From a virus, in IMG/VR virus record IMGVR_UViG_3300046724_000212, positions 1 through 37,829 of that record: 37,829 bases of DNA; one strand, given 5' to 3'. Under the pieces are notes generated by a model that worked only from the letters and a program-made list of their open reading frames with translations, was not told where the DNA came from and ran no database searches. Positions within the stretch are counted from its first letter, which is position 1; each line of letters opens with the position of its first letter. The position numbers and the translations under genes were made by a program. Of this stretch, positions 24,289 to 28,683 are shown in pieces.

Positions 24289-25236
24289 TCATGGCTGCAC
24301 CGGAGGATCAGGGAGTGCCAATCGGCGCGTGTCTGCATCATCGATGAACGACATCGCCGCATCGTAAATCTTTTCCACGATGGCGGGTTCGTGCCCCATA
24401 TCGGCGTGTTCAATCACGAGATGCCGACGCCCACCGTAATTGATTTCCACCTTCAGGAAACCCGGGGGCGCAGGGCTGGCGTCCCCCTCGGTGTCCGCCA
24501 TCAGCTCACGACTGGCATGGACGGAGGCTTGTCCCACGGCTTCAGCGGCGTCAATTAATCGCTGCTGCGCCTCTCGCCAGCGCGCCAGTTCTTCCGCCGT
24601 TGAGCACTCATGCCAGTCATTCACCTCCAGCCGCGCGTTGACGAGCGCCGCAGTCAGCTCTGGCGGAGACTGACGACGGGCGAGATACCGTTCGCGTTTC
24701 GTCGTCGTCGGTCGGTCCCCCTCGGTGTCCGCGACGATTGGCTTAATAGGCGTTTGGAGTTCCTTCGGCAGTTGCCCCCATGCCTCAACGAACGCGTAAG
24801 CGGCATTCTTGCCGTATTCGTCCCGAATGATTTCCTCGGCGCGATGGAGCACCCACTCCAGTTCTTTGATTCTTGGGTCACCTGCCCACGGCTCAGTCAT
24901 GCTCGCTCCTTGATGCGGTCGGTCCCCCTCGGTGTCCGCGCGCAGCCAACGGTAACAGTCGTCACAAAATGGGCCGACATGAGGATTGGCCCACTGCTTC
25001 GCGCCTTCCTCGCTGCAATTGATGCAATCGTGCATGGTTTCGATCGCTCGCTGTGTCGGCGGTCGGTCCCCCTCGGTGTCCGCCCGTCGTTCGATTTCGT
25101 GCTTCATCTGGATAAAGGCCGCACGAACAATAGCCGACAGCGGCACATCTTCGGTATCCGAGAATCCGAAGTCCGAGCAGGCTTTCAGAATCGCGTGATA
25201 CTCCCGTCGGTAGGCGCGGTCGCTTTTTATAGCCAC
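24289..25236 (-). CDS. Multi-module protein with four in-frame DTEGDR repeats, possible concatenated polyprotein
   Basis: A 315-residue frame from the GTG at 25236, which has GAGGA six bases before it and overlaps the previous gene. Four near-identical peptides, (A)DTEGDRP, sit at residues 52-58, 100-106, 169-175 and (as ADTEGDA) 247-253, dividing the frame into five unlike modules: a helical one (1-51), a zinc-knuckle-like one with CINC and CDDC (59-99), a helical one starting MTEPWAGD (107-168), a charged helical one (176-246) and a beta one (254-315). An excellent AAGGAG stands five bases before the internal ATG at 24900 (Met113), so the third module can also start independently. I know no family for any module. 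Confidence 0.6.
   Translation of the reverse strand: MAIKSDRAYRREYHAILKACSDFGFSDTEDVPLSAIVRAAFIQMKHEIERRADTEGDRPPTQRAIETMHDCINCSEEGAKQWANPHVGPFCDDCYRWLRADTEGDRPHQGASMTEPWAGDPRIKELEWVLHRAEEIIRDEYGKNAAYAFVEAWGQLPKELQTPIKPIVADTEGDRPTTTKRERYLARRQSPPELTAALVNARLEVNDWHECSTAEELARWREAQQRLIDAAEAVGQASVHASRELMADTEGDASPAPPGFLKVEINYGGRRHLVIEHADMGHEPAIVEKIYDAAMSFIDDADTRRLALPDPPVQP
24481..24498 (-). repeat. DTEGDR repeat copy 1 (shortened)
   Basis: The coding-strand sequence is GCGGACACCGAGGGGGAC, 18 bases, reading Ala-Asp-Thr-Glu-Gly-Asp. It lacks the CGACC end present in copies 2-4 and is followed by codons for Ala-Ser-Pro. It sits at residues 247-252 of the 315-residue frame. Confidence 0.9.
24710..24732 (-). 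repeat. DTEGDR repeat copy 2
   Basis: A full 23-base copy. It contains the 20-base core GGACACCGAGGGGGACCGAC plus a GC before and a C after. It reads Ala-Asp-Thr-Glu-Gly-Asp-Arg-Pro in frame. Confidence 0.92.
24917..24939 (-). repeat. DTEGDR repeat copy 3
   Basis: A full 23-base copy, identical to copies 2 and 4. It lies just upstream of an AAGGAG and the internal ATG at 24900. Confidence 0.92.
25061..25083 (-). repeat. DTEGDR repeat copy 4
   Basis: A full 23-base copy, identical to copies 2 and 3. It separates the first helical module from the Cys-rich module of the 315-residue frame. Confidence 0.92.
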
Positions 25237-25718
25237 AGATGTTCCTCAGCCTTGCAGCCGTCGCGGGTTCCCTCTTTCACGAGCCAGCCGACGGCCCGCT
25301 CCGCATCTTCTTTCCGAGCAAAGCGCATGGCGCACTTCGCTGGATTCCTCTGCGTGCCGTCAACCGCATCGGTCCATTCATCGCCGCGTCCCGTCCACCA
25401 CTGCGGCGTGGAACTGCCGAGCGCCACGAGCCATGCGACCTGTTCAGGATTGAGGTGAGAATCGGCGGGGCTCGAACCCGCTGCGGAGAGGGATTGTGGC
25501 CCTGACGTAGCCATACGTCCGGCGTCACCGGATCGGTCAGGACTCAGGGATGTCATGCCCGCTAACGCTCCGTCTGCGTCTCGATTCTCATTCATCTGTC
25601 GGTCCCCCTCGGTGTCCAGCACGGCCGCCAGTTCGTCAGCCGCCAGCACTACACCACGCCGTCGCCAACGCTCTATTAGCGCTCGGAGTCGTCGGGTGCG
25701 GGCGTCGTCCGTCACCAT
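25227..25718 (-). CDS. Hypothetical protein carrying one DTEGDR repeat
   Basis: A 163-residue frame from the ATG at 25718, which has GAGGGG upstream and overlaps the previous stop by seven bases. Residues 1-34 are a basic helix pair (ALIERWRRRGVVLAADELAA), residues 35-40 the repeat DTEGDR, and residues 42-90 a low-complexity stretch coinciding with the tRNA-like element at 25457-25589. Residues 90-163 are a plausible folded domain (PEQVAWLVALGSSTPQWWTG; AMRFARKEDAERAVGWLVKE) of a type I have seen in small phage proteins of unknown function. An independent start at Met42 (ATG 25595) is possible. The last codons contain the GTG start of the next gene. Confidence 0.55.
   Translation of the reverse strand: MVTDDARTRRLRALIERWRRRGVVLAADELAAVLDTEGDRQMNENRDADGALAGMTSLSPDRSGDAGRMATSGPQSLSAAGSSPADSHLNPEQVAWLVALGSSTPQWWTGRGDEWTDAVDGTQRNPAKCAMRFARKEDAERAVGWLVKEGTRDGCKAEEHLWL
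25457..25589 (-). other. tRNA-like fold with an expanded middle (tentative)
   Basis: Read on the minus strand, GAGAATCG (25589-25582) pairs perfectly with CGATTCTC (25464-25457), making an 8-bp acceptor-like stem. Two bases after its 5' arm lies a 4-bp hairpin ACGC/GCGT with a 7-base loop containing GG (D-arm-like). Directly before its 3' arm lies a 5-bp hairpin GCGGG/CCCGC with loop TTCGAGC, which fits the T-arm consensus. The region between the D-like and T-like arms is about 82 bases instead of about 23, and no standard anticodon arm (U33) can be placed. It lies inside the 163-residue frame. It could be a degraded or interrupted tRNA, an attachment-site remnant, or chance. Confidence 0.3.
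25598..25617 (-). repeat. DTEGDR repeat copy 5, in a different gene
   Basis: A 20-base copy (GGACACCGAGGGGGACCGAC). It lacks the leading GC, being preceded by GCT. It lies in the adjacent 163-residue frame and reads in the same phase as the other four copies. Its GAGGGGG lies about 11 bases upstream of an in-frame ATG (25595). Confidence 0.9.
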
Positions 25719-26116
25719 TTGATCTGCCCCTCGTCAATCATCGGCTCCGGCGTCTTCGGCATATACCCGCTGCGCAGCCGTGCCGCCCATGCTCGGGCCT
25801 TCGCGGCATCGATGACGGCATACCGTTTCTTCTTTTCGTCCTCTTCCTTGCCGGCGAAATAGTCATATCGGGACGCCAGCAGATCAAGATATTCCGGCGG
25901 GCATTCAGATAGATGCCGACCGTTCATGCTCGGGCCGTTCCAATCGCGTGGGTCTTTCGCCTTGATGAGCGGATCCCCATACGGACCTTCAAGATCAATC
26001 GCCGCGGCGGGCATTGGTGTACCAGCACGCTTCGACTTCGATAGCGCCAGTAGTTCCGCCAGCGTGGCGTCAATGCGCTTCAGGAGGCCAATGGTTTCCA
26101 ATTCATAAGCCGTCAT
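25712..26116 (-). CDS. Conserved-looking hypothetical phage protein
   Basis: A 134-residue soluble protein. The N-terminus is a heptad-like helix (ELETIGLLKRIDATLAELLA). The centre has IDLEGPYGDPLIKAKDPRDW followed by NGPSMNGRHLSECPPEYLDL, a D..W.G....G...S..PPEYLD pattern I recall from uncharacterised proteins of many phage recombination or early clusters. The end is charged (GKEEDEKKKRYAVIDAAKAR). A GGTGGA site precedes the ATG, which overlaps the stop of the 63-residue gene upstream (ATGA). No function is known to me; its position next to the recombination gene suggests an early role. Confidence 0.7.
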   Translation of the reverse strand: MTAYELETIGLLKRIDATLAELLALSKSKRAGTPMPAAAIDLEGPYGDPLIKAKDPRDWNGPSMNGRHLSECPPEYLDLLASRYDYFAGKEEDEKKKRYAVIDAAKARAWAARLRSGYMPKTPEPMIDEGQIKW

Positions 26117-26304
26117 GGTTCCACCTTCCGGCCATCAACGCTGACGATTACTGCTCGCCCTGTTTTTTCGTCTATTTCTACGCCTAGAGCAACCTCATAG
26201 CAGGCATAGCAGAAATTCTCCAATGCATCATCTATAAGGCCAAGCTTACGTCCGATATCCGCGTTGTTGCTTTTACTACTGTGAACATAGATCGTGGTTT
26301 GCAT
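26113..26304 (-). CDS. Small hypothetical protein
   Basis: A 63-residue protein. The ATG at 26304 is preceded by GAGGAG with five bases of spacing and overlaps the stop of the recombination fusion gene by one base (TGATG); longer readings of this frame are shadow. The sequence opens MQTTIYVHSSKSNNADIGRK and contains ALENFCYACYEVALGVEIDE, then a two-strand end GRAVIVSVDGRKVEP. It looks like a compact alpha/beta protein. It is co-translated with the exonuclease-RecT fusion and so could be an accessory factor for it. Confidence 0.65.
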   Translation of the reverse strand: MQTTIYVHSSKSNNADIGRKLGLIDDALENFCYACYEVALGVEIDEKTGRAVIVSVDGRKVEP

Positions 26305-27722
26305 CAGAACTCCTCGGGAGAATAAAGGCCAGCCACGACATCGGGATACACCAGCCGAGCCAACTTCGAGGACGCTCGCGCGACGAGCATGTCCGATGGA
26401 TTCTTCGTCCAGCCACTGCCATTCTTCACGAGGCCAGCCGCTTGCGCTTCTTCGATTGTGTACCGCAGCTCCATCGGTTCTTCGCCTTCGCGCGTTGTCG
26501 TGAACGTTGCGGCCTGTGCCGTGCGCTCGGTGCACCGGAACGTCTTCGCCTTCCCAGATTTCAGCACGAGCGCCCTGAGAGCATCAGCCGCCATCGTCGG
26601 CTTGCCTTCGACGATATGGAAAGCGCGCAGGCTGGCCATAGCCGAGAGGCCCAATTCGCGGCCTGACAAGACCGTCGACAGCACCGCTTCTGGCGTGCCA
26701 TAGGCGCCAAACAGGCGAGCCTTAAATAGCAGTTGCGCCAGTTGCACGGCTTGGTTCATGCTCTGCGGCTCCAGCTGCCGTTCATAATCGCCGTTCATCG
26801 GCACGAGCGACATGCGCGGCGGCTCTGGCTTGATGGTTGATGCCTGTTCGATAAATGCGACTTGTTCCTCTGGCGTAAGTGTCGGCATCGCTTCTTCAAT
26901 GTCCTGCATAATCTCATCCTCGCGATCCATGGTCTGGCGTTCCTTCAGCACCTGGGCAAAGTCAATCGGCGCATCTTCGCGCAGGGACAACAATGCACGC
27001 ACCGTCGGCAGGCGAGGATAGAAAACTTCCAAGGCAGCGCGTTGCGCGGATTTGATGATCTCGGCGTTCTCGGCCGTGCCGATATTCGCGTATAAGGTAT
27101 CGATGTCCCCGAAGGCGTTGAGGATATGCACAGCACTTTTCGCGCCGATGCCCTTAACGCCGACGACGCCGTCTGACGCATCGCCGACCAACGTCAGGTA
27201 ATCGCGCATCTGATGCGGCGTTACGCCAAACTTTTCTTTGACGCCATCCGGCGACATGACGTTGCCAGTAATGGGGGATTTCACCATCACGTTTTCCGTC
27301 ACCAGTTGCAGCAAATCCTTATCGGCGCTGATGATGAGAATGGGTAGCGAAGGAAACGACGGGAGCAGAGTCTTTGGGCCGATGGCATTCGCCACAGCGC
27401 TGGCGATGATGTCATCAGCCTCAAAGCCTTCGGCCATCCACTGTGGGAAGCCGTCACCCTTCAACGTCTCCAGCGCCAGTTCGCACTGATGGAAGAATGG
27501 GGCCGGCTTGCTTTCCCTTGCCGCCTTATACGTCGCGTCCATCTCGCGGCGGAATGACTTGGGCGAATCCAGGCAGAGGGCGGCATGCGACTGGCCAGAC
27601 GTCAGGGCGCGCACCTTGGCGATGATGCCGATGGACGTCGCGTCTGGATTCGGATCGCTTGCACTGACATGCCAGATAGGATGGCAAATCGACGAAAAAT
27701 CGATGAGAACTATCTGCTTCAT
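26304..27722 (-). CDS. 5'-3' exonuclease (flap endonuclease family) fused to a RecT-like annealing domain
   Basis: A 472-residue protein. The ATG at 27722 has GGAG nine bases upstream and overlaps the HNH gene stop (ATGA). Residues 1-about 250 are a PolA/T5-type 5'-3' exonuclease: IDFSS (7-11), GFEADDIIASA (99-109), IISADKDLLQL (130-140), GDASDGVVGVKGIGAKSA (180-197), the last being the helix-hairpin-helix after the metal ligands. Residues about 318-472 resemble RecT-superfamily annealing proteins: GTPEAVLSTVLSGRELGLSA, FHIVEGKPTMAADALRALVL, and the end KNPSDMLVARASSKLARLVY with PDVVAGLY. A charged linker (about 260-318) joins them. The enzyme would resect a 5' end and anneal the strand it exposes. 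The exonuclease call is firm; the RecT call is by pattern. Confidence 0.85.
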   Translation of the reverse strand: MKQIVLIDFSSICHPIWHVSASDPNPDATSIGIIAKVRALTSGQSHAALCLDSPKSFRREMDATYKAARESKPAPFFHQCELALETLKGDGFPQWMAEGFEADDIIASAVANAIGPKTLLPSFPSLPILIISADKDLLQLVTENVMVKSPITGNVMSPDGVKEKFGVTPHQMRDYLTLVGDASDGVVGVKGIGAKSAVHILNAFGDIDTLYANIGTAENAEIIKSAQRAALEVFYPRLPTVRALLSLREDAPIDFAQVLKERQTMDREDEIMQDIEEAMPTLTPEEQVAFIEQASTIKPEPPRMSLVPMNGDYERQLEPQSMNQAVQLAQLLFKARLFGAYGTPEAVLSTVLSGRELGLSAMASLRAFHIVEGKPTMAADALRALVLKSGKAKTFRCTERTAQAATFTTTREGEEPMELRYTIEEAQAAGLVKNGSGWTKNPSDMLVARASSKLARLVYPDVVAGLYSPEEF

Positions 27723-28201
27723 TTCACATGGCTCCAATGAAATCCAGTTGTGATATTACGCACTTGGCTTTTACTAATTGGAGTCACTGCCGAAATCTTC
27801 CGAGCCGACCAGCCATCACCATAGAGTTTCCGAATCCTTCTCACAATATAAGGCGTGATCTTTGCTGCGGGATTCTCAGCGCCAACGAGATTCTTTTCGC
27901 GCTTCCAGCGTCCACGGCGAACCATGTCAGCGCTATTGTCGGCTGGCGTTCCAATATAAAGGTGCAGAGGATTACAACAGATCGGCACGTCGCACCGATG
28001 TAATACGCATGTGCCTTTTCTTAGGCGCTCGCTATGCGCCAATTCATATGCCACTCGATGTGCTTTCAGCATTCGATTGTTGTGGCTAACCGCGCCGTAA
28101 CCATGCGCATCTATAGCGCCAGTCCACAGACAACAGCCGTGATGGTTCTTTGTCGAAATGCGCATCGCGAATCTATGGACAAATTCTTTTCCGTAAATCA
28201 T
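27719..28201 (-). CDS. HNH endonuclease, homing type
   Basis: A 160-residue DNA endonuclease. The ATG at 28201 is preceded by GAGGTG at five bases. The HNH core is clear: CCLWTGAIDAHGYGAVSHNN at the start of the domain, then KAHRVAYELAH, VLHRCDVPICCNPLHLYIGT (residues about 93-112) and PADNSADMVRRGRW. The C-terminal NPAAKITPYIVRRIRKLYGD, then a helix-turn-helix-like GWSARKISAVTPISKSQVRN, is the usual DNA-binding end of free-standing phage HNH homing enzymes. It lies between the lipoprotein and the exonuclease-RecT gene with four-base overlaps on both sides. No intron or intein is seen nearby. Confidence 0.92.
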   Translation of the reverse strand: MIYGKEFVHRFAMRISTKNHHGCCLWTGAIDAHGYGAVSHNNRMLKAHRVAYELAHSERLRKGTCVLHRCDVPICCNPLHLYIGTPADNSADMVRRGRWKREKNLVGAENPAAKITPYIVRRIRKLYGDGWSARKISAVTPISKSQVRNITTGFHWSHVK

Positions 28202-28683
28202 CGGTTCACCTCGCACGTCACGGTCTCGCCCAGCACGGGATGCGTCCCCGGCGGGCACCCCTGCGGCGGCGTATCGATCGCGCAATACGGGGCATCGCCT
28301 TTGAGTTCAGCATGTGTCCCCGGCGGACACGTCGGCGGCTGGGGTGGCGGCGTGCAGGCCATCTTTCCGCAAGGGCCATCCGGCGGCGGGGGCGGCGCTT
28401 GGTTCACCAACGGCGGCGCAGGGGCCACAACGGGCGCGGGCGGGGCCTGGATGGGCGCAGGCGCGACCGGAGCCGGCGCGGCAGGCACAGGGGGCGGGTC
28501 GGGCGCTGGCGTTACCACGGGGGCCACAGGGGCCGGCGCAGGAGGCACCGCGGCCGGCGTCACGAGCACGGCGGGGGCGCTGGTGGCGGCGATGCTGGGC
28601 GCGGTCGGCATGGCTGAGACGCCTGCGCAGGCCGAGAGACTGACGCTGACTCCGACGATTAGGGCGATTCCAAGCGATTTCAT
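28198..28683 (-). CDS. Proline-rich lipoprotein with CPPGTH repeats
   Basis: A 161-residue protein with a type II signal peptide: MKSLGIALIVGVSVSLSAC, lipobox LSAC, acylation at Cys19. Residues 25-100 are a rigid Pro/Ala/Val stretch. The C-terminal 60 residues hold six or seven Cys and two copies of CPPGTH (TCPPGTHAEL and GCPPGTHPVL), likely a small disulphide-bonded domain. A strong AAGGAG lies five bases before the ATG. Proline-rich lipoproteins act as outer spanins in some phages, but this one is long, Cys-rich and in an early operon, so a surface exclusion or envelope role is equally possible. Confidence 0.75.
   Translation of the reverse strand: MKSLGIALIVGVSVSLSACAGVSAMPTAPSIAATSAPAVLVTPAAVPPAPAPVAPVVTPAPDPPPVPAAPAPVAPAPIQAPPAPVVAPAPPLVNQAPPPPPDGPCGKMACTPPPQPPTCPPGTHAELKGDAPYCAIDTPPQGCPPGTHPVLGETVTCEVNR

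Follow-up and report, generated by a model that had tools for sequence, protein, structure and literature searches.

An in-frame DNA repeat at protein-module borders of phage accessory genes, probably acting as a short homology block for module exchange

The window analyzed here is the whole 37,829-base stretch of an IMG/VR record that encodes a P22-like portal protein and a phage terminase. Within two adjacent minus-strand genes of this window, a core sequence, GACACCGAGGGGGAC, occurs in five in-frame copies encoding the peptide DTEGD. Comparison with other phage contigs carrying the same sequence suggests that the repeat would be a short homology block, kept in frame where modules meet in at least one accessory gene, and we consider it probable that such frame-preserving blocks let phage recombination reassort protein modules. 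As read from metagenome contigs, the resulting pattern of exchange resembles exon shuffling in a viral setting.

A search of the window with a 19-base pattern, allowing up to 3 mismatches, returned 5 matches against 0.05 expected, and none of 100 shuffled sequences reached 5. The five copies reported by the initial annotation thus stand far above chance, with the copy at 24481 placed as reported, although the start positions given for the others (24710, 24917, 25061 and 25598) take in flanking bases, the cores themselves beginning at 24715, 24922, 25066 and 25602. Copies 5 and 4 are spaced 536 bases apart. That all copies share one frame holds in the sense that each is read as DTEGD in its own gene, but the two genes are in different frames; the sequences between copies are, as had been noted, unrelated to each other. 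Two further constant elements had been overlooked, a START element at the 5' end (25679-25700) and an END element at the 3' end (24289-24315) of the array. The features of the locus, all on the minus strand and given in the direction of transcription, are as follows.

27719..28285, minus strand: HNH endonuclease gene preceding the exonuclease-RecT fusion; related phages mostly lack it or match it in part
26304..27737, minus strand: 5'-3' exonuclease joined in a single open reading frame to a RecT-like single-strand annealing protein, the two partners of a recombination pair and a candidate engine of exchange (Pfam 5_3_exonuc_N, 1.6e-24; 5_3_exonuc, 2.8e-19; phrog_561 RecT-like, 9.2e-27)
25712..26116, minus strand: conserved 134-aa gene of family c4, directly upstream of the array; 62-98% identity in 14 other array phages
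25227..25718, minus strand: array gene A, 163-aa open reading frame from the ORF list, with START and linker copy 5; overlaps the start of gene B by 10 bases
25679..25700, minus strand: START element CGCACCCGACGACTCCGAGCGC (RTRRLR), the constant 5' end of array genes
25602..25616, minus strand: linker core copy 5, of the "first" type, with upstream GGCCGTGCTG (AVL)
25081..25601, minus strand: module 5-4, spanning the gene A stop and the gene B start; the whole unit is found in G005 at 91-92% identity
24289..25236, minus strand: array gene B, 315-aa open reading frame from the ORF list, with linker copies 4, 3, 2 and 1 and END
25066..25080, minus strand: linker core copy 4, of the "middle" type, with upstream CGGGCG (RA)
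24937..25065, minus strand: module 4-3, rich in Cys (CINC..CDDC); follows START directly in G011, with 96% identity over 121 bases
24922..24936, minus strand: linker core copy 3 (pattern match)
24730..24921, minus strand: module 3-2 (ELEWVLHRAEEI...AWGQLPKEL); also in G013 and L128
24715..24729, minus strand: linker core copy 2 (pattern match)
24496..24714, minus strand: module 2-1
24481..24495, minus strand: linker core copy 1, of the "last" type, with downstream GCCAGCCCTGCGCCC (ASPAP)
24316..24480, minus strand: C-terminal module
24289..24315, minus strand: END element CTCCCTGATCCTCCGGTGCAGCCATGA (LPDPPVQP*), whose stop TGA overlaps an ATG

Array proteins A and B matched no Pfam or PHROG family, and a tblastn search with the 315-aa protein B against 50,697 cultured phage records and 72,556 plasmids returned nothing similar. 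AlphaFold2 modeling of this protein from its single sequence yielded a mean pLDDT of 49, too low to place domain borders. TerL relatives in genomes are spread over several phyla, the best of them only 52-65% identical, with cultured phages at 45% or less. Module 5-4 also has tRNA-like ends at 25455-25590 on the minus strand (GAGAATCG ... GCGGGTTCGAGCCCCGC CGATTCTCACC), kept at about 92% in G005; a tRNA or other RNA element in this module (GAGAATCG...CGATTCTC) was rejected, as ARAGORN and Rfam searches came back empty and the fold z-score was -1.4.

The initial annotation had proposed searching phage and metagenome contigs for the 20-base core, and exact copies of this 20-mer were indeed located on 17 other IMG/VR contigs, which hold 18 matching stretches. 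Scanning for START and END as well added three more contigs, for a set of 21 records (G000-G020), so that 20 further IMG/VR contigs carry the same linker, in 1-7 copies each. The exact form of START occurs in 14 IMG/VR stretches, all but one on known linker contigs, and the new one (L051) also carries the linker. A linker scan of GTDB genome contigs gave no copy; the linker is known from metagenome contigs only, and no cultured phage carries it.

Array genes in these records follow a common grammar, in which all modules have one orientation and the sequence adjacent to a linker varies with the position of that linker in the gene. START in the carriers is CGCACCCGACGACTCCGAGAGC (RTRRLREL), followed by a variable N-module that ends in GGCCGTGCTG (AVL) and leads into the first linker (DTEGDR). 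Middle modules begin with CGACAGGAGCC or similar and end in CGGGCG, read as RA before the next DTEGDR, and the C-module is introduced by GACGCCAGCCCTGCGCCC or GACCCGCCGACGCCC (DTEGDASPAP or DPPTP) and closed by END, CTCCCTGATCCTCCGGTGCAGCCATGA (LPDPPVQP, stop). The hexamer GTGCTG precedes 21/21 first linkers and only 1/36 others (Fisher p = 1e-14), the sole exception lying in G003, where START has diverged to ERRLREL. The gene plan may accordingly be put as START, N-module, linker, any number of middle module-linker units, C-module and END. Some linker-to-linker intervals, such as the 5-4 interval of the window, hold a stop and a new start, which indicates that the unit is a DNA interval and not only a protein domain. 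Recognizable modules in the arrays include DUF3850 (ASCH-like), DUF551 and zinc-finger-like pieces; DUF551 C-modules occur in G019 and G009, and their tail, THWMPLPDPPVQP, contains the END element. By analogy, and as a matter of speculation, array products may be early accessory regulators.

Several irregularities were observed in individual arrays. The first linker of G009 (L040) has a G-run of six instead of five, shifting the frame downstream, and the last linker of G015 (L046) contains a TAG, followed by an ATG. Slippage at the linker G-run may be a means of switching fusions off. In G003 and G019, the gene after END starts with a common TGAGCGCGGACGGACTCCGG, and the two regions are 95% identical over 190 bases; this is perhaps a further exchangeable gene.

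The linker is conserved to a degree that its peptide does not require, as the initial annotation had surmised. Across 57 de-duplicated linker cores (855 sites), only 14 changes were counted, distributed 4/5/5 by codon position, and silent sites show no excess of variation, at 1.8% for every codon position. Modules held in common diverge by 6.3/6.0/19.8% at the three codon positions, a significantly different distribution (p = 2e-16) in a comparison whose two sides are not built identically, the linker cores being set against their consensus and the modules against each other in pairs. The third-position bias of the modules and the fixed silent sites of the linker together indicate that the modules are selected coding sequence and that the linker is conserved as DNA. 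A search of IMG/VR for VLDTEGDR encoded by any synonymous codons found further matches only in unrelated proteins. The DTEGD frame is open in 55/57 linkers, and the other two frames in 13 and 10.

Linkers of unrelated sequence were identified in other phages. In L066, whose terminase is 64% identical to that of the window, an array at L066:7660-9120 has MDTASAAL as START, LASLPAPAAPE as linker and PAAPEEE-stop as END; this linker is present in three adjacent open reading frames and, across IMG/VR contigs, was found only in L066 itself. A 371-aa open reading frame at L128:1080-2195 contains four in-frame copies of GGAGGCGTAGAGACGCC (GGVETP) at spacings of 111, 135 and 168, together with VSPPP(A/V)T twice. 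Among its modules is one related to module 3-2 of the window (67% identity) and joined by a different linker; the phage itself is unrelated, L128 showing no terminase match to the window. In-frame linker repeats are mostly absent from 39 control loci; the repeats seen in control loci L079, L087 and L098 were rejected as tandem or long duplications. A possible linker, PAGDG(A/V)REA, was noted at L065:6503-7650 in two in-frame copies of 27 nt and 96% identity, along with an END-like LDAAKGGR/FDDAAGGKP. The joining of similar modules by different linkers argues against a role that depends on the DTEGDR peptide or on a single recognition sequence. We tentatively propose, at slightly less than even confidence, that these loci represent a recurrent class of combinatorial protein-assembly arrays, in which a lineage-specific translated linker is kept identical as DNA by recombination and a common pool of modules is reassorted in frame, with N-, middle and C-modules coded by position.

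These observations bear directly on the possibility that the DTEGDR(Q/P)EP peptide is itself selected, as a hinge, protease site or partner-binding motif, the identity of its DNA being a by-product of recent origin. The strictly kept frame is in line with this explanation, as is the location of linkers between modules and the abundance in many of them of P/E/D residues suiting a flexible joint. Recent origin is nonetheless at odds with silent sites that stay invariant while the flanking modules differ by about 20% at third positions, synonymous versions are missing from IMG/VR, and unrelated peptides play the same role in other phages, even around a homologous module. We therefore regard selection on the peptide as the main cause of the conservation as unlikely; a passive role of the peptide as a joint is compatible with the linker being a homology block.

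Comparison among arrays revealed the same modules, at 80-100% nucleotide identity, beside different neighbors, with identity starting and stopping at linkers. G016 and G019 have in common a module identical at 120/120 positions, flanked by sequence with 36% identity before the first linker and 24% after the next one, and the DNA that these two phages have in common outside the array averages 88% identity. G013 and G019, with little other DNA in common, contain a 60-base module at 98%, and one module occupies the second linker interval in G000 and the first in G011. For the 16 alignments of at least 60 bases between arrays, 26/32 ends lie no more than 20 nt from a constant element, where random placement gives 50% (p = 3e-4), and 22/32 no more than 10 nt, where it gives 36% (p = 2e-4); these p values are approximate because the comparisons overlap and are not fully independent. 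Six of the records (G003, G004, G006, G007, G009 and G013) lack the common backbone, having only some 0-300 bases, at 90-100% identity, in common with most others; the terminase of G004 is 26% identical to that of the window. The sharing of modules extends to phages between which no further common DNA was detected. Exchanged segments carry a conserved short sequence at both borders, and these borders lie inside genes, between protein modules, also in unrelated phages, instead of at intergenic positions between syntenic genes. The mobile in-frame linker envisaged by the initial annotation comes close to this picture in that small genes are linked, but it is the modules that move, the linker providing fixed homology for their exchange.

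A selfish element spreading by in-frame insertion, palindromic or of the insertion type and comparable to the Rickettsia palindromic elements, would also yield many near-identical in-frame copies, even across lineages. For the 57 joined flanks, however, no linker-less site emerged, the matches listed either carrying the linker as a gap or aligning the flank to a linker when read by eye, and the two sides of a linker were not found contiguous elsewhere. The element is moreover only 15-33 bases long, and the sequence next to it follows position in the gene, making this origin very improbable. Site-specific recombination of integron- or shufflon-like cassettes, with the linker as att site, would account for a short conserved core at all junctions and for modules moving as units, but is less probable still: neither tyrosine recombinases (PF00589) nor serine resolvases (PF00239) were detected in 19 records, possibly incomplete as contigs, in searches with positive controls, linkers differ between phages, and all modules face one way.

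A further alternative is a portable element for ribosome entry, as raised by the initial annotation, or for regulation, whose frame stays open by chance. GAGGGGG with an ATG is indeed seen at copy 5 as well as in two additional phages, and the G015 linker has its TAG with an ATG after it. Copy 5 (GAGGGGG-8 nt-ATG) may, from its sequence, act as a local ribosome entry. As a general rule the idea fails, since a start codon at suitable distance after GGGGG occurs in 16/57 linkers, below the 47% of random array positions, and 55/57 copies lie inside open frames, leaving it a negligible probability. Assembly artefact, with the repeats causing chimeric joining of modules, is equally far-fetched: assemblers do err at short repeats and all records are metagenome contigs, but identical array proteins recur across metagenomes (L011/L012/L013, L010/L015 and L017/L018), frame and positional grammar hold across contigs, and a contig from another study has one of the modules joined by other linkers. 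None of the findings named at the outset as fatal to the repeat's significance (a chance word, an assembly artefact, or a full-length homologue devoid of repeats) came to light. A polyprotein with a repeated cleavage site, also suggested earlier, is disfavored by the unrelated peptides that take the same role in other phages.

If linkers are homology blocks, their shared core of 15-20 bases, always in one frame, would let an exchange at any linker join different modules with the frame preserved. The partners could be two co-infecting phages, or a phage and another copy, and a modest pool of modules would in this way generate many combinations. Exchange would most likely proceed through a phage single-strand annealing system, as an exonuclease-RecT fusion is encoded just upstream in most carriers. 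In the window, this fusion lies two genes upstream of the array, with the 134-aa gene, which belongs to the same backbone, in between; it is present in 14/20 linker contigs, and also in G020. No RecT match was obtained in 6/20 linker contigs, which may be fragments, and the recombinase in these carriers would be another one or that of the host; in G003, a PD-(D/E)XK exonuclease gene and one for an AAA_24 ATPase lie close by. The HNH endonuclease was rejected as the driver, since it is not conserved as a whole among carriers. Distant relatives, with 44-51% identity in the exonuclease-RecT protein, keep the upstream gene order and have ordinary genes without linkers at the array site, which marks the array as a derived trait here.

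According to published work, Red-beta needs a minimum of 23-27 bp for pairing and RecA one of 31-34 (PMC3945230). Linker pairs with unrelated flanks have exact runs with a median of 18 bases, and 21% of them share at least 23 bases, so that some pairs attain the length required by Red-beta and few that required by RecA; with a median below the published minimum for efficient pairing, many linker pairs would recombine poorly. We infer that RecT is the engine of exchange and co-infection its setting, and the benefit would presumably lie in diversified accessory proteins, possibly for host takeover or anti-defence.

Should this reading be correct, some phages carry translated, repeated homology blocks that ease in-frame domain shuffling, an analogue of exon shuffling without introns, and it becomes testable whether phage mosaicism reflects random recombination followed by selection or is steered by sequences maintained to that end. 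Linkers would also offer a handle for finding accessory phage proteins that are candidate host-takeover or anti-defence factors, and linker arrays a natural design for modular protein libraries. If further linker systems confirm a recurring design, that design would merit a name of its own.

Literature searches for a linker-joined module arrangement returned no title or abstract describing one, and several known systems bear partial resemblance to it. In lambdoid phages, short conserved boundary sequences have been proposed to direct mosaicism (PMC3029335). They likewise are short identical sequences at module borders, where general or phage recombination enzymes exchange modules; the linkers described here differ in being repeated within the genome and within single genes, translated in frame, joining protein modules instead of genes, having position-specific flanks, and occurring in phages with otherwise unrelated DNA. 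Rad52-like phage recombinases are known to drive mosaicism in phage genomes that usually lack repeated sequences (De Paepe 2014, PMC3945230). The Red-beta/RecT class recombines short identities, and a RecT-like domain is fused to an exonuclease here, but the homology is incidental in that setting and a conserved repeated element in ours. In Cluster K mycobacteriophages, start-associated sequences lie just upstream of start codons, and their authors suggested a possible use in recombination (PMC3203893). These too are short, repeated and asymmetric sequences in a non-structural gene region, whereas the linkers described here sit within open frames and show no enrichment for start codons.

At the protein level, a survey of domain shuffling in phages by Smug et al. 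2023 (PMC10684548) puts its emphasis on proteins of tails, lysis and replication and similarly documents common domains in different combinations under ongoing exchange; its main text does not contain the word "linker" and reports no repeated linkers, whereas the present case concerns small accessory proteins and a linker conserved as DNA. DUF551 is called portable in work on Ea22, where it is among the C-termini exchanged in Stx phages (PMC10834534). The lambda Ea22 family resembles the arrays as an accessory phage protein with interchangeable end domains, and DUF551 is a C-module here as well; no repeated linker has been described for that family, array protein B has no cultured-phage match, and homology to the Ea22 N-terminal or coiled-coil regions was not seen, the window's array proteins having no Pfam or PHROG match and the DUF551 C-modules of G019 and G009 being the only link. 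The nearest concepts are thus boundary-sequence mosaicism and phage domain shuffling, from which the arrays described here differ in having a homology block that is repeated within one gene, translated, position-coded and common to phages with otherwise unrelated DNA.
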